From Beroe forskalii (taxonomy: Eukaryota; Ctenophora; Nuda; Beroida; Beroidae): 64,000 nucleotides of DNA. Every line of letters starts with the position of its first letter. Within the stretch, counting starts at the first letter, position 1. Positions 6,653 to 60,832 of the stretch are shown piece by piece. The position numbers were made by a program, and so were the translations under genes. Location of the stretch: assembly GCA_011033025.1 (NCBI GenBank), contig WFMF01000442.1, forward strand, positions 86,632 through 150,631, read 5' to 3'. The notes beneath the pieces were generated by a model. That model made no database searches. It worked only from the letters and a program-made list of their open reading frames with translations, and was not told where the DNA came from.

Positions 6653-6706
6653 CTAGTAACAACATCCCACTGACCACCACCTCTCGCCACGCGGGGATGG
6701 TGGGAA
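6653..6706 (-). CDS. EFCAB7: Possible last EFCAB7 exon
   Basis: After GGATAG, phase 0 as required, 17 codons read FPPSPRGERWWSVGCCY and stop at TAG. Human EFCAB7 ends with a similarly short P-R-W-C-Y-bearing tail after STM. The upstream tract is not a strong polypyrimidine tract, so this is tentative. Confidence 0.35.
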   Translation of the reverse strand, partial: FPPSPRGERWWSVGCCY

Positions 6707-9700
6707 CTATCCATATAAGCATATAAGGGAGTGTTCAACTGAGATCCACTTTGATAGTGGACGCAATACTACTAGCACGCAGGTGTCGTGAGTTTGAAAA
6801 ATCACACTGGAATTCTCAATTTGATTTTTCTAAATTTTCCAAGTCACACTCACACGGCACTAAGTACGTACGTGGATAAATCAGTATAACGCACGTACAA
6901 ATGCCGGTTTTGTGGAAATTTCAAACACCGATCTAAAGATCTAAGAGTTGGCGACATCTCTGGTGCGCATCAGCATCCCTTACCTTGAAGCCAGATGGTG
7001 ATTTCTTAACAGACACCATTTGAGCGGGGGCGCCCCTCCGATCATTGAATTTGACTTGATTGAGCATTTAAGGATTTTGCGAGTGTATACCCTAAAATTT
7101 CAAGCAGCATCACAATTGGCAATTCCATTGAGCAATAATACAGGGATATTTTATAGGTTTGCCGGAACCAGGATCATTTTGTGCCTGAAGCTTTCAGTAT
7201 TTACCATTAAGACATTTGCGTATTTTATACGGATTAAGAAGCATTTACTATGCTGCGAACGAATGATTACAGGTGCTCATAATTGAGGGTTCTCGTATGA
7301 CGCTCGCTAAATTCATGCGTCTGATCTAAATGACAGAATTATGAGACAGAATTCTTGTAAATTTGTTCCATGGGCGTAAAAGTTTTGCACAGAATTTTCC
7401 TGTTATCCCATGCCACTTTCGTAAGCTTCTGATTAAACGTCCTATCTCGTAAAATATTGAATCTTTACAACTTCCACTCCCAATCCCCAGAAGCCCAGAC
7501 TGTCTAGGTATTACTACTCTGAGTACTGACTGTCTGAATAGTGAGAGGGCAATCGTCTCAAAAGCATTTTTATTTGCTTGCGTCAGCAGGGCCGCATCAA
7601 ACCATTTACTAATCTTCATGGCTTGATTTTATTGATTCAATGCATATTAATTCAGTGCATATAAATCAATTTTGGTTGTTGAATTACAATCGGCTGCTAG
7701 TAGTCAGCTATCGATCTGGAGACATTTTACGTAGATGTCGCTAGTTCTGAGAACGCCCTCTGAAATGTCCATACCTTGACGATCGTCATTCGTACGTACG
7801 TGATACTGTTACTAATTTTAATTTCTTAATCTAACACTGCACACATGCAACCTGGTGACGCACGATTTGGAAATTACCATATTTATTCTCATTTCCTCGA
7901 ACTTACGACAGCTGTGCAAAATATATATCTCTACCAGTGGCTAAATGGTACGGATATCAACGGTTGTACGGATACCAACGGTTTTGCAGATATAAAGCAA
8001 TAGGCGGGAGAGAGTATCTGGGCAACAATGGTCAACTGAAGTATGGTACAGTTTTGTCTAAAACTCACCATGGTTTTGTTGGGTTGACTCACCATGGTTT
8101 TGTTGGGTTGACTCACCATGGTTTTGTTGGGTTGACTTACCATGGTCTTGGTGTCCTAAACTCACCATGGTTTTGTTGGGTTGCACGGTGAGAATGTGTT
8201 TTCTGTACGGTGGATTCTCCAGACAGTTCCCGGACCCCACCGTGTTAACTTCCACTCGGAGCGGCTTGTCCGTCTGAAACATAGTGTGATGTCATTATAT
8301 CGGTTATTTTCAGGAATATTAAAACAGATTTAAGGAAATGATTTGGCATGAATGGATGAAGACGTTCGTCGTTCAACAGTCGTCAATCCCCAGTTTTTGA
8401 TGCCTAAAGGTGCTTAAGTGTTCTATTATAGTGAGTTTACCGTCTACTATCAGTTGCTATTTTCATAGAAACCGTAGAACATAGGAGCTCATACGTTTAA
8501 AAGCTTTAGATCCTCAGTTACACTTACTGAAAGACACGGATGATAGTAACAGTGCACAAAAGATCTCAACGCAAAACGTAACAAAAAGGTGCTGCAAAAG
8601 GTCAGGCTTTGATGGTCGGCGAAGATGATAACATGTATCTGGCTAAAAGTACCACATTTAAAACGTCTAACCGCCTATTTTTCTTGTGTGGCATATTATG
8701 TGGTCACCCATTCTATTGTGGCTGTAAACGACAAATGACCTTGAAGTGGAATTCATTTGGCAGTTTGCGGAATCGCACCTGTGCATTTGGCGTCTATCGG
8801 CTGTTTCGCTAGCCACTGCCAGTGCCAGTAATTGCTCAAAATATCAAGGGATACTGTGAAACTACGTTTTATATCTTCTTTCGCATTGTTTATTCGTTTT
8901 ATTCTGTTCGGTATAATATTCGAAATATCTTAGGTTGGGAACGCACATTTTAAAAGTGGCCTATCAGTATACCAGAATGTCATTGGTGAAATGGCTTATA
9001 CTTAGTATTTTCTCGATAAGGTTGGAAAATTATTTGATTTGGCTGTGCCATTTTTATCCACACAGTCCGATTAAACGGCTTGACTCATTGCTATTTCAAT
9101 TTGTTTTGCTGAAATCTGTAAACTCAAGGAGGGAAGTACGATTCAAATGCATAATTATGTGATTTAAAAACTCAATTCATTTTAAGTCTGGCTTCGAAAT
9201 GAGAATTTCTTGGTAATGGGAATGTGATTTAGATTAAAATAAGTGAGTCATATTACGGCGCATAAAGAATCAATTCGGTGGATAAAGCATCAATTTAATT
9301 ATTATTCATTCGATAATATTAATGATGGAGATTGTTTAGTGGGATTGTACCATGGGTTAGGAAAGGTAACAATTGTGGTGTTCAAAAGTTTTGTGGGTGA
9401 ATTTTACTGAGAAGTTCCCAACTCAGAGTTGGGGTTTTCTCAACAACTTACCAAATGTCTTTTTCTCAATAACTTACCAGGTTTTGTATGGCTGAAGTAG
9501 ATTTCCAAGGCAGGGTCTGGGTGTAAAGTTTACACTTCTCCTCGATAACTTGGCTCACTGTTCCTCCCTCCTCCAGACACCGTACCACACTCCGCTCTGA
9601 GGGGATTCACGTAGTAGGATTTTACCCTCCGTCGCGCGCACTTTTTTCCGCGACCTCCTAATTTCTGAGTGTTGTGCGATATGAATGGGAGAAATCCATC

Positions 9701-12700
9701 TAGTATTCACGCGACAATAGAACCCTCTGACGTTTAGATGCTGGCCTATTATTATTAGTCTATAATAATTCATATTATCGGGCCCATATTTTTTTGATTG
9801 TCGCCCTACGGGCTCGGGCTAAAACCGAATACATCCCTCGGGCTTACAGTTACACCCTCGGGAAGTATCCCAAAGTAGACCCGATAGGTGCGTGTCTATG
9901 TATAGTGCAAATTCAGTGCAACTTGAGGCAGGAGGCCGTTCTCCACACCAACCAACTTTTACTTGTTTGACTATTCTTTGACTGGGATTATTTGACTTTC
10001 GACTAAACTTTGACAGGAGATGGCCTCAATTGTCAACTATAATTCGACGAATAATTATTTGAAATTTCAGTGACGCATCACACAGTGGCTAGAAAGGTCT
10101 AATAATGAGTTCCCTCATAAACAGGTCTAATAAGTTCCCCCATTATAATCAACAATGTGAGGCGAGCTACTTTCGCCAAGAAATGACCAATTTGAATCGT
10201 AATTTCCACACAAATTATGAACTAACTAGAAAAGCCCGTTGGGCCTGCTAGATAATACAGAACCAAATAATAAGCTCAGAGAAATTTTATGAAGGAGCAA
10301 AATTTAACATTATTCGTGGGTTACTTTAAGTAATGCTGAACCGGGCAAGTTTTGATTATCATCTTATATATAATTTCGTAAGAGCACGTGAATAATGTTT
10401 GTCTGTGCGGGCGCACAGTTTAAATTTGAGCTTGCCAAGAAATTATCAAGGAAAACAAAGGCTAAACTGGGATTAGTCGCGCCGTTGCTATGGATACAGG
10501 TTTTGTGCACGTGCAGATTATGATCAGTTCTATGCGAGTGCTTTCTGATACGTTGTTGATTGCTGCGTTTTAACGTTTGAAAGAACGACGTGTTTACTGT
10601 TTTTCATTTGAAATTCAAGATCTGGAAATAGAGAACGGGTATGGCTGGCATCGTGGAGGCTATTTCCGATAGCATCTCTTCATAAATCTGTGACAGACGT
10701 CGGTCGATTTAAATCAATGCTGAGTTGATGGTAACGGAAAAATGTGAATTTACAGCAATTTAAGATTGAACAAAATCAAAATCAAATTGAATCGAATTTG
10801 GGCATAGCAAATTGCGATTTTGGAATACTGCTCTTGGCGTGACGGTGAATCAATGCTTTGATTCAACGTTCACTATGAGTACGATACTCGGTTTTAATTT
10901 TCAGATTTGAATTCATCATACAAGAGCAAATAATAATGATCAAAACTTGCACGGTCCAGCATTACTAAAAGTAACCAACGAATAATGGTAAATTCTGCTC
11001 CTTTATAAACTTTTTGAGAGCTTATTATTTGTCGCCTGGCAAATTATTTGGTTCTGCACGCATTCTGTTCAATGCTGTTTTAATTTCGTTGCTCCGTAAC
11101 TTTTGACTTGATTGGAGTATTTTGATGCGGTAAAAAGTATTCAATAAATTTGAGTTGCAGTGTTTCAAATTTGCGAACGAGGTGCTGCGTATCAGCGCCG
11201 AGTGAGCTGTGTATTTGTAGGCCCAACGGGCTTGCTAGTAAATCATAATTTGCTAATTTGTTCTGGTATGATGAAGTTAAATCTGAAAATTGAAACCGAG
11301 TATCGTACTCATACTGAACGTTGAATTAAGCATTGGTTCACGCCAAGAGCAGTCTTTTTGCTATGCCCGAATTCGATTCAATTTGATTTTGCTTTTGGTC
11401 AATGTTAAATTGCTCTAAATTCACAATCACATTTTCCGTTATCATCAACTCATCATTGATTTAAATCGACCGACGTCTGTCACAGATTTATGAAGAGATG
11501 CTATCAGAAATAGTCTCAACGATGCCAGCCATACCCGTTCTCTATTTCCAGATCTTGAATTTCAAATGAAAAACAGTAAACACACTGTTCTTTCAAACGC
11601 TAAACTGCAGCAATCAACAACGTATCAGAAAGCATTCGCATAGAACTGATTATAATCTGCACGTGCAGAATATCTGTATCCATAGCAACGGCGCGACTTA
11701 GCTCAGCTTAGCCTTCGTTTCTCTTGATATTTTCTTGGCAAGCTCAAATTTAATTGTGTACGGAAGCACAGACATACATTATTCACGTGCTCTTACGAAA
11801 TTATATATAAGATAGATTATGAACGAATAGATTATGAACTAATAAATTATGAACTACTAAATTATGAACAAATAAATTATGAACGAATAAATTATGAACT
11901 AATAAATTATGACCTAATAAATTATGAACGAATAAATTATGAACTAATAAATTATGACCTAATAAATTATGAACTAATAAATTATGAACTAATAAATTAT
12001 GACCTAATAAATTATGAACTAATAAATTATGAACTAATAAATTATGAACTCTAAGACGTTACACTCACCTAGAGTTTGATTAGATGTCAGGGGCACGAGT
12101 CCCTGGACTGTTATCGTTACCTCAGCGTCAGAGTAGATATCCATATGCCACGGAACTGCCTGGGAAGTAGACAATATAGACACAGGTGTCGCCTGTTTTA
12201 GCATGCTATGACACGCAACAGTTAGTTGTAAAGTTTTTCTCTCTTGACATAAATTTTAGTTTGATTGAATTGCATTGTTGACTGGGATAATTTCTTGTCT
12301 TTTTAACTAGGTAACTACTTACTATTTCCTTGACTAGTTGACGAGCTATAAAAGGTATAGTTGACTAGTTGACTAGGTATAGTTGACTAGATATATTTGA
12401 ATAGGTATACCTTGACTAGCAGCAGAGCCTCATTGTACCCCATGCTTGTAAGAGTTTCCCTTATCTCCTCCTCCCCACCCTCCTCATCCTCCAAAGCCAT
12501 CTCATGCAACTTCAGAAACCCCTCCATCGTCACACAGTCCTCCTTCAAATCGAAATTATCTTTAATTATGGATGACTTCAGAGAAATTATCCCTGATAGG
12601 AACTTTGTTCTGAATTTATGATAACGTGATATTTTGTCCAAAAATTCTTTCGAAAGATGAATTTCATAGTCATGAAAGGTGATAATTCAGGAAATAATTC

Positions 12701-15700
12701 GTCGTCAAAAAACAATTCTTTTTACTTCTTTCCTTATTAAGAATTTCAGTGTTTTTGAATAAGTTGGTAGGTACCTTTGTCTTTCGATTTGCTATAAAAT
12801 CACAGTACTTTAGAGCCTTGTTAAGTTGATGGACAACTACCATGCTCTTACAGTCAACTTTTATAAACAAAGAAATATAGTGGACGCAACTCTTCACTTA
12901 CATAAACAAAGACTTCAATCTTTAACTTGATTTGTTATTGCCATTCTTCGATAAGTATATGACAACTGATCCATAAAATATCACCAGAAACGGACCATAT
13001 TGACCATAAGAAGAGTGAAGGGTCACAGCTGATACAATAAATGTAAGTCACAAGTAATATGCTGAAATATACTGTTGAATCACTATATTATGCAATCTTG
13101 CCTTCTTCTCTAACTTGCCACACGTGGTCATAATATCACGGTTTGCAGTTCACCTTGTTAGAAAACCTTTCAATGAAATTTAAATTTTGAAGGTACATTC
13201 TAACTTAGAATGTAACTTAAAAATTTGAATTTCCTAGAATTTCCAATCCACACAACATCATGTAAAAATTGAGTTTTTCCCTTCGTCAAATATTAGCCAC
13301 GGACTGGACCTACGATCTTTAACTCACTATCATTGACCATCATTGCATAATATCGTCTGCACTTTTTTCGTGTTAAAAAAAACAATTCTAATTTTATTGA
13401 ATCATTATACATACAATTTTGCAAACACAGAAACGCGCGCACAAAATGCTATATGATGATCTTGACGACATGCCAAGTGACCTAAATAATTTAAAATAGA
13501 ACGCAATATTATGAGTCACCAGATGCTTCTGTCGTCTAATGGGTGAAAAGGAAGAATATTATTAAAAATGGAGTTCGCAGAACACCTTAGTTCAGGATGA
13601 AACACCGTGCAAATTGATAAAATCAACACACATGTCAGATATAGTACATTATACATTCAAAAACAAAATACACACTGATAGTCATTATCTGCCATCAGGG
13701 CTTATCAGCTGAACACACTTTATTGTTTCTGATGAAATAGTGTTTCGATGGATTACTGCTAATCAAGTCCTTCATCTTTTTAACCAGTGTACCGTGCTCT
13801 AGTCTCTGCTCCTTAGTTCGATCCGGTGAAAGATAAACTCTGGAGTGCCTCTGTGAGTCTTTCAGTCGCTTGCTGTGAACCAGAGCAAACTCCACGTCAC
13901 CACGATTCTGACACTCGAGCCTGATTGGCCGTATCTTTCCTTCTTCTTTCTTGCCGAGTCTGTAACAGTCGATCGTCGCTGGCACTCGCACATTCATTGA
14001 GTGATAAACTTCATCAACTTTGGCTCCTATGTCCTCACCATCAAGTTCTGGGAGACCAAATATCATCAGGTTGTTTGACCTCCGCTCCTCGTCGTTAACC
14101 TTTTCAATTACCTGCTTTATAATACAACAAAATGTCCAAATGTCCGAGTTTTGCACTAAGGATGGATGACACCCTTCTACATTTCGCACTCTATCACTAT
14201 TTTCAACGGGCTTATACGTCAGCATATCCCAATTTGTTTATTTGCTTATTCTGTTTGTTCGTAACGTCTTCGTTTTTTTGTTGTAAAATGGAACTTGTAT
14301 TCTAAAACTTATATTTTGGCAACTTGCCAGCCCCACCGTGGCTCTACAAACAAAGATGAAAATAAGCATTTTTCAAACTATTCGGAGTTTATTCAATCTT
14401 ACACTATATAGGAGAAGTAAGGTGATAATTGAGCCCACGTGGGTTTACAAACAAACAAGTCAGGTTAAGATGATAATCATTAATAGCATGATTTTCGAAT
14501 ATTTCCCGTATCATATTTGAAACTTTTCAACTTACTCCCTCAACCCACCTTTAAATTTTAATGACGCTCCACATACCTTTAATAACGCTCCACATATCTT
14601 TGATGACGCTCCACATGGCGTCATCCAGCGCCTCCCCGGACGATGTCCTGTGGAAGAGCTCGAACTCCTGTCTGCTGAGGAGTCTGTCTCCGTTCAGATC
14701 CAGACAGTGGAACACGTTCTCTAGCACCTTCCTGAAACATTCGGCAATTTTACCTTATTTTGGGGGCATAAGTGTTGGAAATTATTTATCATCAATAGGC
14801 TGTTGTATACCTATTTTTAAAATTATGGCAACAAATACGATACGTATTTTTCCTTCTCCGATGACCTTTTGTTTAACGAAAAGTTATTGAAAGGCTATGG
14901 GTGTGGACAGTGGACAGTAGAACCCGTTCTCTAGCACCTTCCTGGGGAGCAAGGTTGTTTAAAATAAAAAAGTGCAGCAAAAAATAAGATACGTATTTTT
15001 TCTGAAAATTTCCGTATTTTTTTGGGAGTGCAATTATCAGTAAAAATACATCGTTCAACTTTTATGAATATTTTTGTTGCCATGTGTACAAAAACGTCGT
15101 GTAAATGTTGACAATATCAAGAAGGCGAAGGGGTCAGACAATGTCTGACAAGACTTTCTTCGGTAGCGCACCGCGCGCGTACTTTTTATAGAATTTAACA
15201 ACCCCTATTCAGACCTTTTGACATTTCTTGATACGTATTTTTGAGAAAGGTACGCGTATTTTTCTGCAGGAACCAATACCCCGTACTTTTTCTCGATTTT
15301 TGCACGTATTAAACAACTCTGTCCAGGGAAGGGCGTTGCTAGTTACATAATACATTCGTCTAAAATCTAAGAGAGGTTAAAATTCGGAATAATTTGGTAT
15401 GAAGTAACAGAGAGTGCAAATTCTTTGTAATTAGTAAGGGTCTGACTGTAACCCCCTGTGAACTAAATAGTATAGTAGGTTTGAGAACGTTTTTCGGTAG
15501 TTCATAGGCCATAGATGCACCAGAAAAAAACTAACAAACTTCTGAGTTGGGCAACCCCCTTTTTTGGACCCCTTTTCTTTCAAAATGGGGCAAAAACTTT
15601 GACTGGTAATATCTCAGCTTCTGATTGAGATACGAAACCAATTAATACACCAAACTATGCAGAATGAGCACATTATGGGGGGTAGAGCATAGTTTCTAAG

Positions 15701-18700
15701 TCGAAACCCCTTTAGTTTTCGAGTTATGGACGAAAAACCCCTTTTTAGCCCTACACGTATGACCAAAATTTCCCCTTTTTCAATAAATGAAAACAGAAGA
15801 TCGTAGAGACCTCAACAAGTACACTAGGGTATGCAGAATGAGCACATTATGGGGGGTAGAGCATGGTTTCTAAGTCGCAACCCCTTTAGTTTTCGAGTTA
15901 TGGACGAAAAACCCCTTTTTAGCCCTACGCGTATGACCATAATTGCAGCTTTTCAATGAATGAGAACAGAAGATCGTAGAGACCTCAACGAGTACACTAG
16001 GCTATGCAGAATGAGCACATTATGGGGGGGTAGAGCATAGTTTCAATGTCGTTACCCCTTTCGTTTTCGAGTTTTGGACGAGGAACCCCTTTTTAGCCCT
16101 ATGTGCATGACCAAAATTGTCCCTTTTCAATAAATGGGAACCGAAGATTGTAAAACTTCAGACAAATTGGACCTGGTCCTTTATTTCAACAGCATCAGGA
16201 GTATCGTCAAGATTGAAATAACTTCGCCAGTGGGGGTCAGTGGTGTAGTGGTATCGATTTTTGGACGGGATCGAAAGATACTGAGTTTGAATCCTGGCCA
16301 GCACCACTAAGCTAAGGGTGAGAGATTTTTTTGAGCCTATGCAGCCCGACGGTTTACTCAGCCGAGCGCACAGGAAACTGTGCGGAAGGGTGAATTAGAA
16401 GCTGGCCATTGCAGCGAAGTCTCGGGCAAATAAAGTGTGGATTTCAATTCCTTAACCGTCACTTGCTTGATTACTTTGATCTTCGATTCCTGTCATTGGC
16501 TGTACAGCAGTTGGAATAGAAGTAAAACCTTCCAGATGAAAAAGCTGAAGAAAGCAGAGAAAAATGACGGAGTATCTCCATCAAAAAATCTAAGTACGAG
16601 AAGCTAACGGAAAATATTCATGAGGCTGGCACATGAAAGCCAATGACCTACTTACCGTAGAAGTTCCAATGACCTTACACATTTTGTGTTTTCGGAGTTA
16701 TTTCTGAAACTGAAAGCCGCTTTTCATTGAATCAGGGAGGATTTACAAAGGTAGGTATATACAATATAGTTTGACTATTATTATAGATTAGAATTGAAAC
16801 TGCTGAGAAAGATAACCGGCGATTATTACATCGGTTTGAATATCTTGAACATAGTACATACCCTATAAACTCGTAACATACCCCTATGAACTCGTAGCAT
16901 ACCCCTCTGAACTTGTAACATACCCCAATGAACGTATTGATCACAGACCCCTATGAACTAATGAACTTCTATGAACTTGCTACATACCCCTATGAACTTG
17001 TAACCTGGATTTGTGTTGAACTGTTGAGACAGACGTCTATGAACGGCTTCACATAAGTTAATAATATCCCTGATCCTATTCCAATGCTTTTTCAGCTTCC
17101 GGCTGGTGCATGTCTATGGCCAACAACTGACTTGTTTGCAGAGCAACTTCATCCATCACAATCTGTCGTGTTAAAATAAACAACATTGCCAGGGGACAGG
17201 GAAAGGGGAGAGGTGCTCGTTGCACATATTACGTTCACATCCCCACACCGCTACATTCAAGTGCTTGAAAGCTTGAAGTTGAGTTATGGGAACGGTGTTA
17301 TTCCTGCATAAATGATCCTTGTATCCAAATAATAATGCATCCCTCATCTCTACTATATACACTATACAGATGAGTAGATGTCTGAGTTGCCCACAGGCCA
17401 GGTCTCACTGGAACTATGTAAAAAAAGAACCGCCAAGGGGTTTCTTCTGGAATCTGGTCAAAGTAAAGATCACACCGGGAGCTTGTGCACGTAACATACA
17501 CAAGCCCCCATAGACCCCAGAAATATGGACGGTAGGTTATGGGGAGCAATACCAGATTTCATCAAGTACTCTCCATGGGTGATGCCCAGGTCACTGTGTT
17601 GCGGCATATCCAGATGAAATGGGAACACCGCATTGTTAGCCTTGAGAATCTTTATGACAGCATGTTTCCATCCTGATAAGACAATCCAAGCTTCCTATAG
17701 AAATAGTTTGTCCGTTTTGCCACATATCCTCTGGTCCCAACTTCTACGGTAAGTAGGTCATTGGCTTTCATGTGCCAGCCTCATGAATATTTTCCGCTAG
17801 CTTCTCGTACTTAGATTTTTTGATGGCGATGCTCCGTCATTTTTCTCTGCTTTCTTCTGCTTTTTCATCTTGAAGGTTTTACTTCTATTCCAACTGCTGT
17901 ACAGCCAATGACAGGAATCGAAGATCAAAGTAATCAAGCAAGTGACGGCCAAGGAATTGAAATCCACACTTTATTTGCCCGAGACTTCGCTACAATGGCC
18001 AGCTCCTAATTTACCCCTTCCGCACAGTTTCCTGTGTGCTCGGCTGAGTAAACCGTCGGGCTGCATAGGCTCGAGAAAAATCTCTCACCCTTAGCTAAGT
18101 GGTGCTGGCCAGGATTCGAACTCAGGATCTTTCGATCCCGTGCAAAAATCGATACCACTACACCACTGACCCCCACTTGCGAAGTTAGTTCAATCTTGAC
18201 GATATTCCTGGTGCTGTTGAAATAAAGGACCAGGTCCAATTTGTCTGAAGTTTTACAATCTTCGGTTCTCATTTGTTGAAAAGGGGCAATTTTGGTCATA
18301 TGTGTAGGGCTGAAAAGGGGTTTTTCGTCCATAACTCGAAAACTAAAGGGGTTACGACATTGAAACTATGCCCTACCCCCCATAATGTGCTCATTCTGCA
18401 TAGTTTGGTGTATTTATTGGCTTCGTATCTCAATCAGAAGCTGAGATATTGCCATTCAAAGTTTTTGCCCCATTTTGAAAGAAAAGGGGTCCAAAAAAGG
18501 GGGTTGCCCAACTCAGAAGTTGGTTAGTTTTTTTCTGGTGCATCTATGGCATATGAACTACCGAAAAACGTTCTCAAACCTACTATACTATTTAGTTCAC
18601 AGTTGGTTACAGTTCTGGGCACATACGACCCTTACTAAATTAAGAAAATGAACTTATAAAGAGTTTCCGCCCTGAGCGTACGTAGGCACTGGATATTATA

Positions 18701-27322: not shown

Positions 27323-27386
27323 GTTAAATTATTCTCTTAAATTATTCTCTTAAATTATTCTCTTAAATTATTCTCTTAAATTATTC
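27323..27386. repeat. 13-bp tandem repeat (about 5 copies)
   Basis: TTAAATTATTCTC is repeated almost exactly. Confidence 0.85.
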
Positions 27387-35113: not shown

Positions 35114-35138
35114 GTATATACCACATGTAATCTACTTA

Positions 35139-36889: not shown

Positions 36890-39800
36890 CTGATTATGAA
36901 AATGTTCATGAAGCTCTTCAAGCATGGAGTTCTGATGAGGAATATCCAATTGACAACACACCAAGGAAAGGTAAGTTTCCACTACAATTGATCCCATTGA
37001 TGGATTGTCTCTTTATGAATGTAAAAATTTGAATTGATTTTCGCAATTTCAAAGTTGTTTGATGTGATTGATCATTGATGCAGTGAAACAAACAACTTTC
37101 AATAAAGTAATCTAACCCACACACTATACTCCACTATTCTACTGACAGTTTCAAGATTATAAAAATCTCTTCTTCATGAACTCCATATAGTGCAACACAA
37201 CATTCTCAAATTTGATTGTAATTAGTAGTGTTGTTATGTTTAAAACAAAGTTTAAAGTGTTTAAAAGTTACTCTCCTTCCAGAAAATGATCCAGTGAAGT
37301 GTGTTTTGTGTGGATTCTTAACAATGCGTAGTTCTGAATTCATAAGCCACATCAAGGAACACCACATCCAAGAAACAGCACCCAACAAGATTAAAAGGTG
37401 AGGTTAAGAAATTTCAATTGTTAGAATGTTGTGCTGTTGATTAACTCACAAATTATCCAAAACTATCGAATGACTATCAATGACTTTGAAATGTAAGCCA
37501 AAAATGTTTGATGATTTTCAATAATGAAATATTTCAAAAGAATAAACTTTATCTTCCTTTTCAGGACACCACCAAAACAGAAGTCCTGTCCCTTCTGCTA
37601 CTATACCTCCCTGTGGACCCTACAAGTCATCCTACATCAGATCATCTACCACCCTGAACAGAGATATGGGCTGCAGTTCTATAGCAATGCTTCCTGGAAC
37701 ACCCATCCTTACAGGTTTTGTGTGGTTTTAACCTTCACCTCATCTACTAAACATTCTGTGATATTGTAATGTTTTATGTTATACTTTCAACTGTCAGTTC
37801 TGTTAAGCTGTTTTGTAATAACCTACTGTACAATTTACAGAAGTACAGTATAAGATTGAAATCCATGCATAGTATAGCAATTAGTTTCTTGACTTTTCGT
37901 GTTAAAGAAAAGTCTATGAATACTTCAATCTATCTGCTTGAAAAACTGCTCTACCGAGTGCAGTGTTCTTTACACTGCATTATTACATTTCCTGTGTTTG
38001 AAATGTCATTCTCCTCAGGTCACTGTACTACAAGTTAAGGCAAAGCAAAGCCCTGGCTGGAAAGCTGGCCCTGCCTGCCGATCCCTTTGCTAACTCTAGC
38101 CTTCCTCTTGTAGACGACATACCACGTGGTGTCAAATTGTCTGGTGTCAAAGTGTCAGATGTTCTGAAAGTCACTCAATCCGTGCTTTCTAAACTTGTTT
38201 CAAGGGCCGTGGACGACTATATCATTTCCAAGAAGAAGTGCTCTAGAGCACCCAATAACGACATATTATTGGAAAATATTGCATCTGATAACTTGCTGAT
38301 GGATGAATTGGAGCGTTGGTCGTGTTACTCAGCCTCCAAATTATCTGATAGAATGGAGAAAATAAGTCAGATAAGATATAAGAAGTGTAATTCTCAAGAG
38401 AGTGATGTTATGAAATCATTTGAGGCGATGTTGAAGAGAAGATTCTGTTGGTTTTGTTGCACGGAATCAGGTTCGGATTATAAGAATAAACAGTTTCCTC
38501 ACATAGATCCTGCTCAATACGGAGCATTTCGTAGTTTACGTGCCACTACCGAGCACCTTCTGTGTCACATGAATCTCAGGATTTACTTGTCTTGGGAGGA
38601 AAGCTGTGATGATTCGTGTGCCTTTACGTCCAAGAAAAAACTTCTGGAACATGTTTCGCTGACCCGAACTATTGCACACAGAAGAGAAAGCAGCGTGAGG
38701 GAAGTGGTAAGGAGTAGAGAAAATGTGTTGAAAAAAGAACAGGAGAAAACGTTACGGAATTATAGAAAGTGGGTGTTAAGAAAAGAACTGAATACGAAAA
38801 GGTACAAAGACAATATGCTGAGCAACAAAGAAAAGTCAAATACGAAAAGAAATAAGAGCAAGTTCCAGTTTGCTGTTCCCGATAATGAAAAGATCAATAA
38901 GGGTTCGAGGAACCAAATTCCTTCTCGGCTCAATTCATTTACGAAACAAAAGTCTGGATCGAATCTCGTGAGCTCGTCCAAGAACCGAGCAAGGAAGAAA
39001 GATATCATTTCGCCTGATCCTGAGACTGTTCAGCCATCAGATACGAGTCGGATTGTGACTGTAAATCCTGACAGATCCGATGATTCCCTTTCCTTCGAAG
39101 AGACCCGTTACAACTTCTACCTTTATGTTCGTTTGGGTGTCTACCCCAGGTTGCCAGCGCAGTCCACTGCTGTGATACGAAGTGTCACTATAAGACCTCG
39201 CGAAGTTGCTGTACTCGCACAAACACAGAATCCCGCTACGTTTCTTCTTGTGCCCGTGGTACCTGTCAATCCTGTTCCCGTGGTTCCTGTTAATCCTGTT
39301 CCCGTGATCCCTGCCGATCTTGCAGCTCCGGTTTTAACACCTAATGTGGTATCTGTCAATCCTACTAACCCGGTTTCAATAACACCTAATGTTCAAGTAA
39401 CCGAAGTTAGTGGAGGTGGTGACCCAGTATGTAGTACTTCTCAAATCGTAGCGTCTACAGGCAGTATCACTTCCATGTCTCAAAACGTGGCGTCCAGTAG
39501 CAGTCACACTTCTGATGCTAGCGCTACTTTACCTAACCAATCACCAGTTCAGGAACCTCAAGTTCCAGTACTTAGTACACAGGTTCCACTTGCTGTTCAG
39601 CCTCTTGATAGCGTGAGGAATTCATCTCCTATCCTGATTGAGTTGGGAAAGGTTGGTGGTAAGGAACCAGAAGTGAGTGCAGCTGAACTACCCACAGTCA
39701 AAACCGGAGACATGGGATCATGTGCTGAGGGGTCTAATGTCATGGCACCTACTGCTGCGTTATCTGGCACCACAACGTGCAATATCACGGTGAAAAATCC

Positions 39801-42654
39801 TACTACAACTGATCCTAATGTGACCAATTCCATAAAGAACAATCCAATGATGATAGATCCCATGGAGACCAATCCCGTGAGGATCGATCCCAATTCCACC
39901 AATCCCTTGACGACTAATGCCACATTGCAGCCTTGGGAGCTTGGAACTTCTCAAAACCCTGATCCTGTGTCAGTAGAAAGTTTCCAGCCCCAACAAAAGT
40001 GCTTCAGAAGCTGGCGTCGTGGCCCAGTAACTGTGATATTTGATGACTACTTCTCCTTCGAAGAATCTCAGCTCATGTTTTACTGTAACTCTGAGCTGCG
40101 TGAGAAGGTTCTCGCTAAACGAGCTGTGATGGAAGCACAAAAAGCACAGAAACTCGCTGCCAAACGAGCTCTTGATAATGAAAATCAGCAACAAAAAGCA
40201 TCAAAATCATCTCCTAATAGCGAGACTAGCGCTCCAAGACCTAGACGAACGTCGGAGCAGGATTTCAGCAGTGACACAGACTCATCAGACGATCCGAATG
40301 ATCCGTACTATGGGATCGATAAGAAGGACTCTCTGTATCTTCCCCACCGAATGGTCCGGGTTACAGAGAAACAATACTCCCTTCGTAGGAGACAGATTAA
40401 TTTTACATATGCTGAGAATTCTCAACCAACGCTTGAAAGGGGTGAGTTAGATCATGACAACGAAGGTAGTGATTCAGATCGAAGTGAAGGAAGTAGTGAT
40501 TCAGATCAGAATGAAGGAAGCGAAAATTCTGATAGCTATCATAGCAGGAGTGACAATTCAGATGAAAACGAATCTGATCAGGAACGAGAAATCCCCAACA
40601 ATCTTGATCATGATGGTGGTAGTGAGGAAGATTTTGATGATAGTACTCTGTGTCTAGAATTTGGTGATTCCTCCTACGCTATAGATCTAACGTTCTGCAG
40701 AGACGAGTTGATGACACAGGAATCATCTGAAGATGAGGAGGGATCGGTTAAGGTAAAGAGTGAGCCTACTGAGATGTATGCAATCAAGAGTTTTGCGAAG
40801 AGCTCAGCGCTTTTCATGCCCATAAAGGATGAGAAAATGTCAGAGGATTCCAAGTGTTTTGGGCAGTGTGGTATTAAATCTGAACCAAGTGAGAGTACAT
40901 CTATACCAGTCTCGAAGGAGGAGATGAAACCGGAGAATGCAGTGTACGCTTGTACGGAATGTAAAGACAGTGTAATTAATGAGACAAACCCTCCTCAAGT
41001 CGGAGCGCTGTCTAATGAAACGACTCAAACGAGTGATGGTAAAGGGAATGAAAGGAAACAAACTAATGAAACAAGTGATGAAGGAGAAGGAGGGGGTAAA
41101 AGAAAGCAAACCGCGCGTAAATCAGTGACACCGTGGTCAGTTACAAGACGATCAATAGATCCTAGCTTGAGGAAAAAGAAGCCTAAACTATGTGTGACAA
41201 GACAGAATGTTCAATCGAGTAACGTCAGGGAGACATCACCAGGCAACAATGAAGATGTTATTGCAAATGAAGGTGAGGAGGTTGGTGAGCATTCAGTTGC
41301 ACCCGCACCTAGTAATGAAATAACCATCTCAACACAGTCTCAAGAAGTTGTTCCAACGCAAAGAAATAAACGGAAAAGGAAGGTGCCTAAAACTGCATCA
41401 ATTCTTGTTAATTTCCCTGCTAAACCTCTATCCAATCTCGCTAAATCCTCGCCAGTTTTTCAGTTAAGCGCTCCTTCTTTCTCTCCTGGAGGATATGTCG
41501 CATCTAACCCGGTACCATCCCCTGGATGTCCCACTGTTAAGTTAGCATCTCCTGGTCATCCTGTCGTGGCTCCTGTCAGTCCGGCGTCTCTTACGAACTG
41601 TGATACCACTCTTCAACAGGAGAATACCACCCTGCACCATGATACCACCCTGCAGGAGAATACCATGCAACAACACGATACCACGCAGCAACAGAATACC
41701 ATGCAGCAACATTCAGTCACAGTAAAGACGTCTGAAATGCACAGCTCAAAACCAAAAGCTCGAACTAATCAGCCACGCGGAAAAAGGTTGAGAAAGAAAG
41801 TGTCCTCCCATTCGCAGCCTTCTTCATCAGCTGGAAAATTGCTTGAGAGTTCTCCACTTTTGTTTGAGCAACCCTTTAGTCCTAACGCACCTCGAGTTAT
41901 TCCAGTCACCCAATCAATCCCCAGCTGTCAGGTGATGACCGGTGATCAAGTGACACCGGTTAATCAAGTGAAGACTGGTAATCAAGTGACACCGGTTAAT
42001 CAAGTGAAGACTAGCAGCGAGGCGACATCTTGTGCTCAAGCAACACACACTTCGTGTGATTTCATCAGAATGCCATATAGCCCCAACGCTCCTCAAGTCA
42101 GACCAGTGGTAAACCCACCAATGACCACCAATCCAGAACAGCCTGCAAATAACACTCTCCTGCCGCCTCGCACAGCCCCAATGCTACCCTGCCCTGTAAC
42201 CCCATCAAACTACAAGGTATGCGAGTATTGTAACAAACGCTTTAAAAACCTCCTGTGTGCTAAGATCCACTACTGGACTGATCACCAGCAGTTACCGTAT
42301 AACAAGGACTTGCTGATACCACATGACCGTGTCACACAACAAGACATGGAAAACATGGTCTGTCCCTTCTGTAGAACCCAGATATTAGGTCCTGATCACG
42401 CTGCAGTATTCGAGAGTCACGTACTGACTCACCTCCAGCTGATGCCGTATATCTGTAAAGATTGCAGGTTCGCAGCTTGTAGCCCTGAGGGTATGAGGAG
42501 GCATGCGTGTGGGGTTAGGAGAGTTGAGCCGTTGAAATACGAACAGAAATCAGAGGGCGGTTTGTCGGCGTGTGAAAACGAGGTGAAACCAAGTGTTACG
42601 CTTTGTGATGAGACAGAGGAGTGGAAGGGGTACATTAAGACTGAACCAACGTGA
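36890..42654 (+). CDS. Full-length C2H2 zinc-finger gene (right copy), 5 exons
   Basis: Exons: about 36890-36970, 37283-37397, 37565-37714, 38019-42654, all with fitting GT-AG borders and phases. Early exons encode two C2H2 fingers (CVLC...HIKEHH; CPFC...HQIIYH). The long last exon encodes a basic region, a Val-Pro-Asn repeat (VPVVPVNPVPV), Asn-Pro repeats, an acidic Ser-rich region, SUMO-type motifs (VKSE near 40756, IKSE near 40875, terminal IKTE) and three more zinc modules (CEYC, CPFC, CKDC). Probably a nuclear DNA-binding regulator; no orthologue recognised. The first exon's frame (YENVHEALQAWSSDEEY) has no ATG and meets a stop just upstream, right beside the inverted-repeat arm, so 5' exons are missing or displaced. 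Confidence 0.8.
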
Positions 42655-42761
42655 AAATTGTATCTTATTTTATTTTAGACTATTAAACTAGGGTATTTTT
42701 CATGATATTGCATGAAACTCAATAATATTTTATTTTAATGGTTTTATTTAGCAATCGCCAA

Positions 42762-42767
42762 AATAAA
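42762..42767 (+). terminator. Poly(A) signal of zinc-finger gene
   Basis: AATAAA about 110 bp after the stop codon, conserved in the left copy. Confidence 0.5.
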
Positions 42768-45414
42768 TCTAGCGCTTTGAGCAGTTTTTATCCACAATAT
42801 TTAATTATCTTTAATACTTTCAAGCTATTTTTTAAGCTATCTTTTATTTGATATGACTTAATTGACTTAAAGTTTATTTTATGGGTTGATAGATCTATTA
42901 TTCTTTCATCGTAACTAAGCATTTCATTTTATCTTCATGTATCTTCTAGTTAAATGGAAATTTATTAATTCAAATAAAATGTGCAATAGATGCCTTGAAA
43001 TAATCAGATGATTTTCGAATGATTCCGTTTATCTGGCTTCAATCATTCATTTTGTGATAAGGTACTCTAAGGTAAGGGTGCTGCCATTAAAGAAGAGGGG
43101 CGAAAATTTTACTCTGGGCCATAAGCGAATTTAAGATCTTATGCCAGATCGTCTGTTTACGAGCCCCTCAGTCACTATCACTTGTTCTATGGCCTTTCTC
43201 AGTTAAATTCCTCAATGTCAGGCGAAAATCAGGTTTAATGTAAAAACACACACAGGTGTTGCTTTGAATATTTTTGGCTTCGTAATTCTTTATGCATCAG
43301 TTAGAAAACTAAATTCCTCAGAAACAAATGGAGCTGGATTTTTGATTCTGACCTCCAAAAATTTTTAAGCCCATTTTACGCATATTTTGCCAAATTTTTG
43401 GCCCAAATGGGCTAAAAAAGTTTTGGGGCCTAAACCAAACATCTGCCTCCATTTGTTTCTGAAGAATTTCGTTTTCTAACTGATGCAAAACAATTGATGA
43501 CAAAATATTATCGACATTTGTGTGCATTTTTACATTAAACCTGATTTTCGATCAACCTAAGTCTATGCAGTCGCCTCACTATGTCAGTCTCTAGAAATGT
43601 CACTATTTCTATCTTTGCCGCTGTCCTTAATTCTCCTTGTCCCGAAACTATCTTTTTCTACATCTCTAATTTGCATTGTTTCCATCCATTGTATCGTAAG
43701 TGGGGCATCTGCTTCGGTCCTCAGTGGAGATGTTGTATTTGAAACGCGCGGTGTAGTTCAATTAACATCATGGCGCGTTGAATGAAATTAAACGAGCACT
43801 TCCTATAATTTTGGGAGCGCGCGCCCCTAAAATCATAGGCAGCGCAGCTTGACTGGCCAAAAATCCAAAATTTGCAACGACCATCGTTTTCGAAAAAGGT
43901 TGTTAGATTTATTTTTTTCATCGGTTCAATGTAAATTAACGGATAGGACCATTAAAAAGTGTGATATTACTTTGTCAGACGTTGTCTGACACAGAGTATG
44001 TACCTAAGTTTTTCAGGAGATGTATCATGTAAGCCAACTTTCCAGGGGATGTAGAGTATCCCTTGCATCCCCACTGGCTACGTGGCTGTGAAGCAAGCCG
44101 TCAATTCTCATGAAGGTCTGCATCTGTCAACGACACTATACAAATCATTGCTCTGCATGACTCAGCTCGGCCTACAATTCAGGACTTATCCGGCGAAATA
44201 CCATCTTCCACCTCTCAAGAGAGGCAGGGAATGTGTCAATACAATTATAACTCAGTTAAGGAGCTAGAGGCATTCAAGATAGCCCTTGGAGACTTCCTCA
44301 CCCAATACCCGGATAAGCCACCGGTTACGGGTTACACACCGCCAAACAGCAACTCCTTACTCGACTGGAGCTGTGAACGAGGAGATGGAGTACGTGGACA
44401 TCACTGATCCCAGCTGCGATCCCTGCTAAACCCTTCAAAATGTATCAAAATGTATGTATAAGAACCGTGGGTTACCCTTCCATGCCGTACAGTTCTTTCA
44501 ACAGTAGGATCAATATACTGGACCTTATGCTTTCGGCTCAGGCCCGACCAATAAGTACACAGAGGGTTTCGTAAATTCGTTTGGTTGTAGCTTTGTAAGG
44601 TCACTGCACTAGTGGTACCCAAACCAAATCTTGGCGTATATTGACAAAATCGGGAATTTAGCTACGCAAACCCAAAGCCACGAGTGATTGAGTTAACAGG
44701 GATAACATGAGACAGTGTTATCCTGTCTCATGTCAGCTTTGTTTACCAATGTAAGCCCTGTAATTGACCCCTGACATTAGGAAATCGTTTGCGTAACTGA
44801 GCTGAGCTGGGTGACGTTATTCTGGCAGAAGCGGATTAAGTGGAAATGTGGAATGAGGGGTATCTACTATCGGCATATCATTGAAATAACGGCAGTTTAA
44901 ATGGGGCATCCGAACTACATCTACATATCACGCGGCACGCTATATAAAATACTCTAAGGTAAGGACCGGGAACTGGAAGGACACTTTTTCTGACACCAGC
45001 CGTTAAGTTTCCGGTAAGTCTCCCATATAAACGAGATCCTTCATTATCTATGATAATGACGTTGGGGTAAGAATTAGGGTTATTGGGAAGGTTAGATTTA
45101 TAGGGTACAAAAGGATTTAGGTTTATATCCGTGACGTCACTCAGAGCCGTTTATATGGGAGACATACCCCGGCACCCCGCTTCCTTCGATCGCTGCTGCT
45201 GTCGGCCCAGCGAGATTAAAATTGATATTTCCTATGAAATGGTAGGAGTACAAGAATCAACTCGGTATTATAATCGGAATGAACTAAAATAAATAACTTA
45301 ATTTAATTTAAATCATTTGATTCCCCGTAAATCATTGTCTGAAGTGCTTGTCAGACGTTGTCTGACCCCTTCGCCTGACAACTGAAGTGCTACATCTCAC
45401 TACCAAAGCGCCAC

Positions 45415-45788
45415 TTTATCATCAATCTAATCACACGACCAGCCTTTATTGCACGGTCATTCAGTTCATTACCAGACGTCGGATCAAACCGAGGTCTCGC
45501 TGATGCTAAAACATTTCAATTCTCATAACTTCATTATGGTGAACGGATCACTTTCGTCATCATATGAGATTATGAATTTAAAATTTAAGTCAAAATCTTA
45601 GTAAAATAGTCAATTTCTCTTCGTCTTTTAACACCACAGCATCTTCAACATTATAATATGATTGTCTTGACTTGAATCCTTGCATCGGAAAGGTTTTAGC
45701 TTTTCGGTTTTGCTGGGGCTACGGTTCGTATTTTGATCGTAGGCTTGAAGGGCTTCGACCGTAGTTCGGGGGAGAAATGATGGCAAAT
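45415..45788 (-). CDS. Two conserved exons of an unrecognised gene, right copy
   Basis: Exons 45788-45672 and 45505-45415 correspond to the left-copy exons 6407-6285 and 6130-6040. Frame and borders are kept. The peptide reads LPSFLPRTTVEALQAYDQNT and SARPRFDPTSGNELNDRAIK. The second exon is identical in length (91 nt). Confidence 0.5.
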
Positions 45789-46026
45789 CTGAAACGTGTT
45801 TGAAGTTTTAACAAGTATTGAAGTAGTAACGAATCTATTTACACAACTGCTAAGGTGCATGTAACGTTCGTCCATCGATCGAATGGAATTGGTCGATCGA
45901 TCAACTTCATTTGATCGACTGATGTGTTTTTAATAGAAAATCTTTAAGCTAGTAGGGAAACAACTAAATATTGCTCATTTAAAGGTGCTATGTACGATAA
46001 TCATGAAAAATTTACATATACATAAG

Positions 46027-46146
46027 AAATCAACAAGATATTTGAGAATTTGGACATGGACAACGACGGAAAGCTGGACTATTCGGAGTTTACGGGGATG
46101 TACACGAACACAAGTAACCAGCTCTCTCACCTTCTCACTACCAAAG
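46027..46146 (+). CDS. EFCAB7: EFCAB7 EF-hand 2 exon
   Basis: Acceptor ACATACATAAG, donor ACCAAAG|GTGGGA. Reads INKIFENLDMDNDGKLDYSE then FTGMYTNTSNQLSHLLTTK. Loop ligands Asp1, Asp3, Asp5 and Glu12 are present. It starts in phase 1, so an upstream coding exon must exist. Confidence 0.87.
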
Positions 46147-49100
46147 GTGGGATCGCACAGGGCGAACGACATTTTGGGTCGTTTTGGGGTCGTTCGCGTA
46201 CTTTCGATTATGTGAACGACCCATGGGTCGTTCACGTAACTTAGACCCCAACGAGTCGGTACATACCGCGGTACGTATTGCGGTACGTACCGCGGAACAT
46301 GTCATAACTAGTCGGCACATACCGCAGTACGTACCGTGGTATGTGCCGACTAGTTGGGGTTTTACATACTCCAACTGGAGAATGTAACGATTGAAAGAAA
46401 TCTAACTTCTGTAATCCGTCACTGATACCTACCTTAGTACACTTAAGAACGGCGTCACTTAATTAGTGCGGTTTGAAAAAAAACGCACCAATTAAGTGTA
46501 CAGTAATTAAGTGCGCGTAAAATTAAGTGTATGCTAATTAAGTGAACAATTTTATGACTTTTGCGTTTCCGATTTTGGCTTTTTCGGGCATGAATTAATG
46601 AATCATGACCTTCAGCTAAAACTTCAATAGTTTAAAGAATGAAATTATTATGTTGTCATTCTGAGATATGCACGGTCCAAACTACAGCACTTCTGTACTG
46701 TAGTACTACAACTTATTACTGTTGAAAATTTGTTTCTTGCCATAATTGCAAAATTGTATATTGCTGGTCCTATGAATATTAAATATGATGTCTCGCAATC
46801 AAGAGGAAAATTTCAAATTTTATTCATATTTACACATCGTTTTCGATCTCATAAAAAACCGCACTAATTAAGTGCGCCGATCTTAAAGTGCGCGCAAATT
46901 ACGTGGTGCCGTTCTTAAGTGTACTAAGGTAAGCATTCTTCTGTTGATTTTGTAATTTAAGATGCTTGTTTTTAAATGAAATATAAACCGGCTCTTACCG
47001 GTATATTTTAAAGATGACTCCAAGTTTCAGTCAATACAAGTATCGCTAAATTTATTCCAGTAAAAGATACTACTAGTTTATGTGCTATCTTTTGTGTGCT
47101 ATTTTCATGTGATATTTTAAATTTTCAGTTCCTGACTCAAGTCAGAAGACGGAGCCGACCAAGGAAAGGCCCGCTCCGACTGCAATGCGATCCACTGCCA
47201 TAGAAGAGACAGACGATGATTCAGATGAAACCACCGAATCTGATGACGATGATGACGATGTTGTGATCGTGCCGGCAAAGAAAACCCCCGTCCGTCAACC
47301 GGGTAAATTGGAAGTTCCCTATCAGTGCTAAAGTTTAGGCAGGTTCACTAAGTTTCCAGGATCGGTATACTTCGATTTTTAGTATACAAATTTAGTATAG
47401 GTACATTGAAATATCGAAATATTATACCGAGCTACCGATCCGCGTTATCCTACCGAACCTGCCTAAAGTTCAGTTATTAATTTAATTTAAATCGACTTAA
47501 GTTCAGTATTGTTGCCCTAATTCGGGTTTGTGGAGCAATATCTTATTCTTAAACTGTTAGGTTGATGGTTATGTCGGTTTTAATATCTGTGTTAATTACA
47601 TTATATAGATCAAAGAAACTACTCCACTCAAAATAATAATAAAAGTTCATCTGAAGAACTTCCTATCTTTCATGAGATATCAAAACGTCTTAAATACTTA
47701 AATAGTCATTAACGGGCGTTCAGTGGACAGCTACCTGTAATATGGTGCCTGAGACCTGAGTGTGATCTTCATTCTTCGCGGAACCATTTACTCTTATTAA
47801 ATCATTATAATGCATATGTTGTGAAGAGTCCTCAAGTGATCAGCACATGAATTTGCCTGTGGTTCACATTCATTTATTAACAGGTATAACATTGTCAAGT
47901 GGATACTTCCAAAGGCTAACTCAGCAAACATTGTGATTTTGACAATTTTGTTATTCTCACCGTTTCAATCTGAAATATTTTCAGTTGCTGCAGCTAAATC
48001 TGAACCGAAGGGCTCCACAGCTAAGAAAGTGGATCCCGATGTTAAGAAGATTAGCAGTAAGTCAGAGAGTAAACTGAAGTCTGCTGATCACGAGAAAGAG
48101 GACAGTAAAAAGACACAAAAATCGAAAACCGAGAAAAAGGGCGCGTCTGCGGTGGTAGAAAAGTCTGCTGACGCATCGACAAAGGATAAATCGGGAAAAG
48201 AGAAAGCATCTGCCAAGTCGAAGAAGCCTGAAAAATCGAATAAGTCTAAAAAAGGTGAGCGTTTTTAGCATAATAAAGTGGATGTTTATTGCGTATGAAT
48301 GGCCAGGAGCACGTGATAACAGGGGCGACGGGCATGGATTCTCCTTTCTTTCCTTGTACATAGGCTCCATCCATTCCTACCAGTAAATAAAGCGAGCAGT
48401 TCGAACTGCAGTTTGCGCGTATTTTGTGTGCGCGGCTTATTTACATCATGTCTGTCCGCCGCGCACACAAATGACGCGCAAACTGCAATCTAGTGAACTG
48501 TCACTGTTAGTATTGTAATCAAACTTGTAATCAAACTTAGGGAGATTGATTAACATTACGCTTCCTTTTTATGATCACACACTCTTGTTATCACACGGTC
48601 ATCATATGTTGTCATCATATGTTGTCATCATATGTTGTCATCATATGTTGTCATCATATGTTGTCATCATATGTTGTCATCATATGTTGTCATCATATGT
48701 TGTCATCATATGTTGTCATCATATGTTGTCATCATATGTTGTCATCATATGTTGTCATCATATGTTGTCATCATATGTTGTCATCATATGTTGTCATCAT
48801 ATGTTGTCATCACATGTTGTCATCACATGTTGTTGTCAATCTGTTTTAGAGATTGACAACATAATAATATGTTGTCAATCTGTTTTAGAGATTGACAACA
48901 TAACAATATGTTGTCAATCTGTTCTAGAGGACCCTCTCTTGGAGCCTGGTCAAAGCACCAGCTACCTTAGTGAAGTGGCGTCAACCACGAGCATTAGCAG
49001 TTCATTGCTGTCAGGTGAAATACGTGTGTTCGCTGCTGCCATGTTCTTTAGTCACCACAAATGCCATTTCTGATCATAGTCTGATGCCATATTTCATGTA

Positions 49101-50683
49101 TTCACCATTACTAATTACTACAAATGCCATGTTATTTTTGTTATCACGAACGTTATGCCTTCCCAGCTTCCGATTTTAGTGAAATCACGAATTATGCCAT
49201 CTCTGAGGCCATATTGTTTCGTGTTATCGAACCATTCCATCTTCGCTGCCATGTGACAACATAAATTTAATGTTTTTTGTTATCACAAATTATGCCATCC
49301 CCGTTTATGAGATAAGGTGGTTTCATCGTTCCGCGTCGATCAAATGAACTGATCAAATGAAAAATGCGCTCAACACACTTTTACAATGATGTCCGCGCAA
49401 AACAGCAAGTGCGAGCGATGGTGTGCGTCTTTCATTTGATCAGTTCATTCGATCGACGCGTAACGATGCAGGTGCCTGCATCGTGAGATCAAAAACTCCA
49501 ACTCTGATGCCATATTCTTCTTAGTTTTAATCACATTTGCCATCTTCTCCACTATGCTTTGTGAAATCCACAGCTATTTGTTGCTATTCGTGAACAAACA
49601 TTCTGCTGCTGTTCACTCTTCAACTGTTTTTGTGTTTAACAAGCTTGACAAGCTGACAGTTTGGCAGCTTCAGGCAAATCATGACGACAAGAAACGCTCT
49701 TAATAATATGCTGTAACTGCTCAATACAATCTTACAATGTTCACGTCTACTTAATGAAGTAATGAGTACCTCCATTCATCAAGACATCGAGTATGTTTTA
49801 ATTGCGTGCGCGTGATTGATTTCATTTTTTGGAAATCAAAATCAATACTTCAATAATCATAAATTGCAAATTTGTCTACTTAAGTGCACTTAACCGTCAG
49901 ATATTAAGATCTATATTATAGAAATCTGACGGTTAAGTGGGTTCAGTGTTATTATTCATAAATAAAATCAATGTGAATGACTCAGCAGTCAGCGAGTATC
50001 ATAGACTTCCTGAAATTGTTAGTTATAAATTCTTGGATCGTATCAAATCATCAAATTTTCATGAACCATATTGGCCTTTTATCTATGGTGTAAAGAGCAT
50101 GAGCATCACACCTTCCCAAGAAACGTGACAGATGGGGCGTGATCGCTTTGACGATTTCTTTCTTGATTATAAAATGCCATTGAATAAATATACCAAATGT
50201 TCTGGCCTCTAATGTGTACCAGGTACCTACTAAAGACATTGATCGGGGAAGCTTCCTTTGAAAGGAAATAAAATATGTATTTAGCCAGCAGATTGATTCT
50301 AATAATCAAGATTAGCTTGAAAGTTTATTCTCAAAGATTTGACAGATATTTTGAAAGAAAATTTATTCATTCACTCAACATCAAACCGACGTTAATTATA
50401 ATCAAGTTCTATAATTTGAAGGATACCTTCCTTACCTATAACTGTCCTTCAGAAACCCGTCCGTCTAACGCTGCCTTACCCACGGAGCCCGAGGAGGAAA
50501 AACCCGCCGCCAAAGAAAAACCCGCGGAGCCCGCGCCCGCCGCCGCGTCGGGGCCGCCCTTCCACCGGAATGTGCGCGGGTGCACGTACGCGGGGGAGCG
50601 CGGCAACTGGACCGCGCACCAGTACCTGCTCACAGTGGAGAAGGAGTGCAAAGTGGGCTTCCTGCTGTCTCCTCTAGCTCAAA
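46027..50683 (+). CDS. EFCAB7: EFCAB7-like gene, 5' half (5 exons on the plus strand)
   Basis: Exons 46027-46146, 47129-47302, 47985-48254, 48928-49014 and 50453-50683 all begin and end in phase 1 and have lengths divisible by three. They encode an EF-hand (DMDNDGKLDYSEF), a long disordered linker (Asp-rich, then Lys/Ser-rich) and the first half of the C2/calpain-III-like domain (NVRGCTYAGERGNW, HQYLLTVEKECKVGFLL). Human EFCAB7 has the same order with a shorter linker. No continuation exists downstream on this strand; the next exon in phase and homology is 25638-25539 on the minus strand. Exons for the N-terminus and the first EF-hand were not found upstream, where the segmental duplication ends. 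Confidence 0.87.
46244..46365. mobile_element. Palindromic MITE with ACCCCAAC-AGTCGG ends
   Basis: ACCCCAACGAGTCGGTACAT mirrors TGTGCCGACTAGTTGGGGT, with alternating CGGTACGTACCG units inside. Just before it, 46170-46240 has another inverted pair built on GTGAACGACCC. Confidence 0.7.
46432..46929. mobile_element. Mariner-type MITE with TA target
   Basis: Ends CCTTAGTACACTTAAGAACG and CGTTCTTAAGTGTACTAAGG are flanked by TA on both sides. Subterminal units TAATTAGTGCGG recur. No transposase. Confidence 0.8.
47129..47302 (+). CDS. EFCAB7: EFCAB7 acidic linker exon
   Basis: Acceptor AAATTTTCAG, donor CCGG|GTAAAT. Reads VPDSSQKTEPTKERPAPTAM then a run with DDDSDETTESDDDDDD and VVIVPAKKTPVRQP. 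Low complexity; flexible linker. Confidence 0.75.
47985..48254 (+). CDS. EFCAB7: EFCAB7 Lys/Ser-rich linker exon
   Basis: Acceptor ATTTTCAG, donor AAAAAAG|GTGAGC. 270 nt of Lys/Ser/Glu-rich sequence starting AAAKSEPKGSTAKKVDPDVK. It is much longer than the matching human linker. Confidence 0.75.
48396..48495. mobile_element. MITE with CAGTTTGCGCG ends
   Basis: TTCGAACTGCAGTTTGCGCG and TTGTGTGCGCGGC mirror GCCGCGCACACAA and CGCGCAAACTGCA. Same family as 20391-20512. Confidence 0.75.
48600..48830. repeat. 13-bp satellite (about 17 copies)
   Basis: GTTGTCATCATAT repeats almost perfectly. Open in three frames on the plus strand, but only because of the repeat. Confidence 0.95.
48831..48927 (+). 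repeat. EFCAB7: Tandem triplication of splice acceptor
   Basis: TTGTCAATCTGTTTTAG|AGA (twice) and TTGTCAATCTGTTCTAG|AGG (the real one) are separated by about 43 bp. Each unit carries pyrimidine tract, AG and the first exon base pair. Confidence 0.85.
48928..49014 (+). CDS. EFCAB7: EFCAB7 small linker exon
   Basis: The acceptor CTGTTCTAG is the last of three tandem copies of the same acceptor. Reads DPLLEPGQSTSYLSEVASTT then SISSSLLS. Donor TCAG|GTGAAA. Confidence 0.75.
49320..49480. mobile_element. Palindromic MITE (GATCAAATGAACTGATCA)
   Basis: CGCGTCGATCAAATGAACTG and its mirror CAGTTCATTCGATCGACGCG enclose about 60 bp. A half copy is at 30765. Confidence 0.75.
49877..49937. repeat. Short palindrome
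   Basis: CACTTAACCGTCAGAT mirrors ATCTGACGGTTAAGTG with a loop of about 25 bp. Confidence 0.75.
50453..50683 (+). CDS. EFCAB7: EFCAB7 C2/calpain-III-like exon, first half
   Basis: Acceptor ACTGTCCTTCAG. GC-rich Glu/Pro/Ala linker, then FHRNVRGCTYAGERGNWTAH and QYLLTVEKECKVGFLLSPLA. Donor CTCAAA|GTGAGT leaves phase 1. The exon end and donor are reiterated downstream. Its codon use is markedly richer in G/C than the other exons. Confidence 0.85.
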
Positions 50684-60810: not shown

Positions 60811-60832
60811 ATAATAATAATTCGGTATATAC

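Follow-up and report, generated by a model that had tools for sequence, protein, structure and literature searches.

The window analysed here, a 64,000-nucleotide stretch of the ctenophore Beroe forskalii genome, ends with the last base of contig WFMF01000442.1 (contig base 150,631), and the contig is free of any N. It contains the two halves of one EFCAB7-like gene (EFCAB7 in what follows), a calcium-binding cilia gene, on opposite strands: the 3′ half lies on the minus strand (8165..25638) and the 5′ half on the plus strand (46027..50683). Two zinc-finger-like paralogs, termed X1 (3′ part at 1..6472, plus strand, the rest lying left of the window) and X2 (36890..42652, plus strand), and two inverted repeat arms, the clean part of the left one on the plus strand at 32748..36483 and the right one on the minus strand at 56362..63159, accompany them. 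Human EFCAB7 is a partner of EVC-EVC2 and IQCE. All alignments to it used a human sequence that was not drawn from a database, and assembly-wide searches covered the 216-Mb B. forskalii assembly with its 1134 contigs.

The two halves were delineated by splice sites, reading frames and alignment to this human protein. On the plus strand, where exons had been anticipated between 46027 and 50683, five (E1, 46027-46146; E2, 47129-47302; E3, 47985-48254; E4, 48928-49014; E5, 50453-50683) are each preceded by AG and followed by GT, with phases that fit when the E4 acceptor is set at 48928. The minus strand carries M1 (25638-25539), M2 (23658-about 23,532, end open), M3 (14731-14577), M4 (12559-12411), M5 (12159-12069) and M7 (8276-about 8165, end open). 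The original prediction had extended this half from 25638 to 6653; six exons stand from 25638 to about 8165, and the predicted final exon with its end at 6653 could not be confirmed. Another candidate exon, M6 (9591-9478), was dropped as it has no AG acceptor. The plus half closes in phase 1 (CAA A/GTGAGT, the slash marking the exon end) and M1 opens with CG TTC, bearing out the expected match of splice phase: E1-E5, M1 and M2 join into a single open frame that crosses the break and stays open until a TAG late in M2. As this TAG precedes the first strong donor of M2, one or more exon boundaries between M2 and M3 are provisional. M3, M4 and M5 in turn share one open frame.

Similarity to the human sequence also crosses the break. 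Joined, E5, M1 and M2 gave a single alignment to human residues 260-364 with 34.8 bits, compared with 27.5, 14.8 and 17.3 bits for the three taken separately and 25.8 bits for the best of 200 shuffles. The set E1, E5, M1-M5 and M7, which leaves out E2, E3 and E4, aligned in one piece to residues 260-498 (94.4 bits, E=3e-26); exon by exon, the comparison covered E1, E4, E5 and the minus-strand exons, E2 and E3 being linker exons. Taken alone, E1 (residues 131-161, E=1e-5), E5, M3 and M4 were significant against the human sequence and M7 was weak (E=0.008), with M2 (E=0.031), M1 (E=0.18) and E4 (E=5.9) falling short of significance; M5 alone had no match to it and was placed by eye. In Pfam, E1 matched PF00036 above the cut-off, M3 and M4 gave EF-hand and EF_assoc_2 matches below the cut-offs, and E5, said to open a 'C2-like' domain, gave no family, leaving that label without backing. 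Colinear similarity to the human protein runs through an EF-hand, the middle domain and a second EF-hand, as expected of an EFCAB7 orthologue. This resembles the build of human EFCAB7, where an EF-hand and an acidic and lysine-rich linker precede a domain running into a second EF-hand with an EF-associated motif; the gene studied here differs in that the exon for the first EF-hand was not found, the last exon is not established and M2 meets a stop before its first strong donor. For the N-terminal EF-hand 1 region, no credible match was seen on the contig or in the assembly: the assembly search gave 32 weak matches, and among five places inspected, four looked like ordinary calmodulin-type EF-hands by eye and one had no EF-hand frame. 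Since its N-terminal exons were not found, the gene itself may be incomplete here.

Peptide searches of the 216-Mb assembly with M3-M4-M5 and with E5-M1-M2 returned three matches each, all on WFMF01000442.1, and no second EFCAB7 copy or haplotig elsewhere was among the matches listed. The original prediction of a single gene is thereby supported. Moreover, when the right-hand part of the contig is turned, the eight placed exons, with M1 and M5 positioned manually, all come to lie on the minus strand and follow the order of the human gene.

Three exon ends of EFCAB7 run into tandem arrays whose unit copies the exon tail together with its 5′ splice site. The E5 array (50676-51115, plus strand) holds seven sites of the form AGC(T or A)CAAA/GTGAGT, the M2 array (23553-22650, minus strand) has a 41-bp unit with 17 exact GCCAG/GTTAGT, and the M7 array (8183-8063, minus strand) has a 24-bp unit with four exact AACCATG/GTGAGT. 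For a single gene to have repeats that carry splice sites at three of its exons seems unusual. EFCAB7 introns further contain a reading frame at 13700-14150 (minus strand), which by eye we take to resemble a retroelement ORF1-type protein, and a foldback repeat at 15445-18613, the arm pairs of which are 87-96% complementary.

X1 occupies the plus strand from contig position 80,353, where its open frame starts, to window position 6472, with an upstream exon at contig 80362-80955. By blastn, X1 aligned with X2 in three blocks (window coordinates): −1841..2295 with 37856..41991 (8.48% substitutions), 3648..4771 with 42018..43115 (6.83%) and 5700..6472 with 45042..45853 (12.2%). The last-exon frame of X2 is open for 1550 codons, to 42652, and its X1 counterpart for 1351 codons, ending in a ~1.35 kb stretch that is absent from X2. 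Both look zinc-finger-like by eye, X2 with a C2H2 pattern; in Pfam, finger-like pieces of X2 matched below the cut-off only and the X2 exon 38002-42652 gave no family. That X1 and X2 are alleles of each other was ruled out by the 7-8% substitutions in their long coding blocks, as against about 2.8% in the arms.

Frame comparison with X1 indicated that X2 is truncated. Homology between the two begins at about 36,890, with the first 165 bases ungapped, and there X2 stops, while the X1 frame stays open 174 codons further upstream, something that 0 of 10000 single-base shuffles achieved; the five other frames of the same X1 stretch hold 9 to 29 stops. Upstream of 36,890, no similarity of X2 to X1 was found. 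When the assembly was searched with the X1 upstream exon, the matches listed were to X1 itself, to the X2 stub and, apart from these, solely to a short dispersed repeat located beyond the exon, so that no second copy was among the best candidates scored. On the contig, the X1 N-terminal peptide matched no further part outside X1 itself, and the rest of the X2 frame is in neither arm. X1 has an AG six bases ahead of the homology start, and an exon start could conceivably lie near the X2 cut, in place of a true break. With the X2 frame cut and EFCAB7 split around one and the same poor-quality spot, two unrelated genes appear to be interrupted there.

The predicted inverted-repeat arms of 4 and 6.8 kb were recovered at 32748-36802 and 56362-63159, in inverted orientation and 97-98% identical in their longest ungapped blocks. 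Away from the join, they differ by 2.8% (96 substitutions over 34 bins, each of 100 aligned positions), and over these 3400 positions deletion events are 22 in the left arm and 28 in the right. A 112-bp repeat is present in 5.2 copies in the right arm and 2.4 in the left. Only the right arm harbors a repeat element with inverted ends (57847..60086, no strand assigned), which has near full-length counterparts at 21 other places, spanning the query from at most position 51 to at least position 2229 at 90-95%; from a short flanking repeat, we label it hAT-like. Outside a dispersed repeat (query 992-1577), matches to the left arm were confined to WFMF01000442.1 among those listed. Given the ~2.8% divergence, the presence or absence of the element and the change in tandem copy number, the arms resemble a pair of alleles of a single stretch, that between E5 and M1. 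The X1/X2 divergence in the two long coding blocks (8.5% and 6.8%) exceeds that of the arms, which are therefore probably younger than the X1/X2 duplication and not part of it.

Close to the join, at the end of the left arm (36484..36889, plus strand), this balance is lost. The last three bins (300 positions) before it contain 27 substitutions, and their deletion events are split 34 in the left arm to 1 in the right (summed by hand; binomial p 2e-9), so that consensus quality changes at the break. The bins cover neither a repeat stretch (about 35,130-35,364) nor the final hundred bases ahead of 36,890; the latter align even worse. Bases in homopolymers of at least four make up a fraction of 0.266 at 36484..36889 versus 0.121 in the right-arm counterpart. 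Such one-sided small losses look like unpolished long-read sequence. A second noisy, homopolymer-inflated and apparently unpolished stretch exists at about 19.0-20.0 kb of the contig, in a tandem-repeat region, and 19 of 1503 sliding windows were as homopolymer-rich as the join; thus, noise alone is no proof of a wrong join.

At the other end, the right arm and a single dispersed repeat element (63147..64000, no strand assigned, with matches elsewhere in the assembly) reach contig base 150,631, placing one of the two duplicates at the contig boundary. Among the matches listed for this end element, 28 of 50 non-self matches reach the last contig base, and two other copies share no similarity in the 1500 bases past it, by which we ruled out a contig end located within a repeat element. 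One-sided noise was absent here: compared with two other copies of the end element, deletion events were 11:7 and 12:9. The expectation of noise at contig ends thus failed for the right end of this contig, and noise is no general mark of contig ends here.

Taken together, the one-sided deletions, the cut in X2, the position of the right arm at the contig end, the allele-like differences between the arms and the absence of a second EFCAB7 from the matches listed favor an assembly chimera, and we consider it likely that the split of EFCAB7 stems from a misjoin at about 36.48-36.89 kb rather than from an inversion in the animal. The animal would then possess one colinear minus-strand EFCAB7 between two zinc-finger-like paralogs pointing towards it, the likely true order being X1 (plus), EFCAB7 3′ half (minus), arm, EFCAB7 5′ half (minus) and X2 (minus). 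One piece of the contig would end in one arm allele, the left, with its unpolished-looking tip; the other would begin at the truncated 5′ end of X2, include the EFCAB7 5′ half and extend along the second arm allele, the right, up to the contig end. A join of these pieces in the wrong orientation, at about 36.48-36.89 kb, would present the same locus twice, once per haplotype, as 'inverted-repeat arms', and the remainder of X2, perhaps with the missing EFCAB7 N-terminal exons, would be found beyond a gap. The allelic nature of the arms and the falseness of the join are inferred from these observations. Speaking against a misjoin, there is no N gap at the join; a raw read that closed such a gap could have spanned a true adjacency. 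The second noisy stretch on the contig, the balanced deletions at its right end, the AG in X1 and the EFCAB7 N-terminal exons that were not found also weigh against this reading.

The original prediction had invoked an inversion, in the allele or introduced by the assembler, with its ends in the arms. Assembly error was thus among the options it named, yet the version it described appears less likely than a single wrong join. True inverted repeats within one haplotype, between which the assembler flipped the segment, would account for two inverted arms of about 4 and 6.8 kb, 97-98% identical in their longest ungapped blocks, on either side of it, and reversing 36811-56356 does mend the exon order of EFCAB7 as proposed. 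However, the misjoin layout restores that order equally, so exon order cannot separate the two, and the flip is disfavored by what it leaves behind: X2 remains cut at 36,890, so that only one of the two inner junctions is repaired, the noise lies on one side only, and the right arm is taken for a true second copy even though its far flank on the contig consists of nothing but one repeat element. We regard such a flip as improbable.

A genuine inversion allele, in which recombination between the inverted arms broke EFCAB7 in the animal or in one haplotype, would display the same anatomy, and X1 and X2, too, would flank EFCAB7 as inverted repeats once the layout is corrected. It would, however, have to break a gene for which the searches gave no further copy, and in addition to cut X2 separately and to leave deletions resembling sequencing errors at the same spot; we judge it less probable still. 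Lower again in our estimation stands an inversion polymorphism by which EFCAB7, nested within inverted paralogs and inverted arms, would switch between intact and broken among haplotypes or cells. Standard splice signals at the inner exon ends would suit two independent genes, or the trans-splicing of opposite-strand transcripts into one protein, but the open frame and the domain alignment both cross the break, with the joined exons outscoring each one alone, and we hold this reading to be highly implausible.

The opposite-strand arrangement of EFCAB7 is hence confirmed as an observation and is most likely no biological feature. If the misjoin is true, the contig is unfit for claims of gene loss or inversion, and annotation of the two arms as a segmental duplication should be avoided. 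The combination of opposite gene halves, an arm at a contig end, one-sided noise and a neighbor cut at the same spot could be used to find similar joins. If the misjoin is wrong, the locus would represent an inversion allele disrupting a ciliary gene for which no further copy turned up in the searches.

Compared with known systems, the locus is reminiscent of an inversion between inverted repeats, as a gene is restored when the segment between the inverted arms is reversed; here, in contrast, one inner edge cuts through a neighboring gene and shows deletions that resemble errors. Closer to our preferred reading of a misjoin are the false duplications of genome assemblies, as treated in Rhie et al. 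2021 (PMC8081667). Unlike in that account, the second copy is inverted here, with no gap at the join. The likeness to the cases described there is that a single contig contains a stretch in two diverged versions, one of which adjoins the contig end, and that the result can be mistaken for a biological rearrangement.
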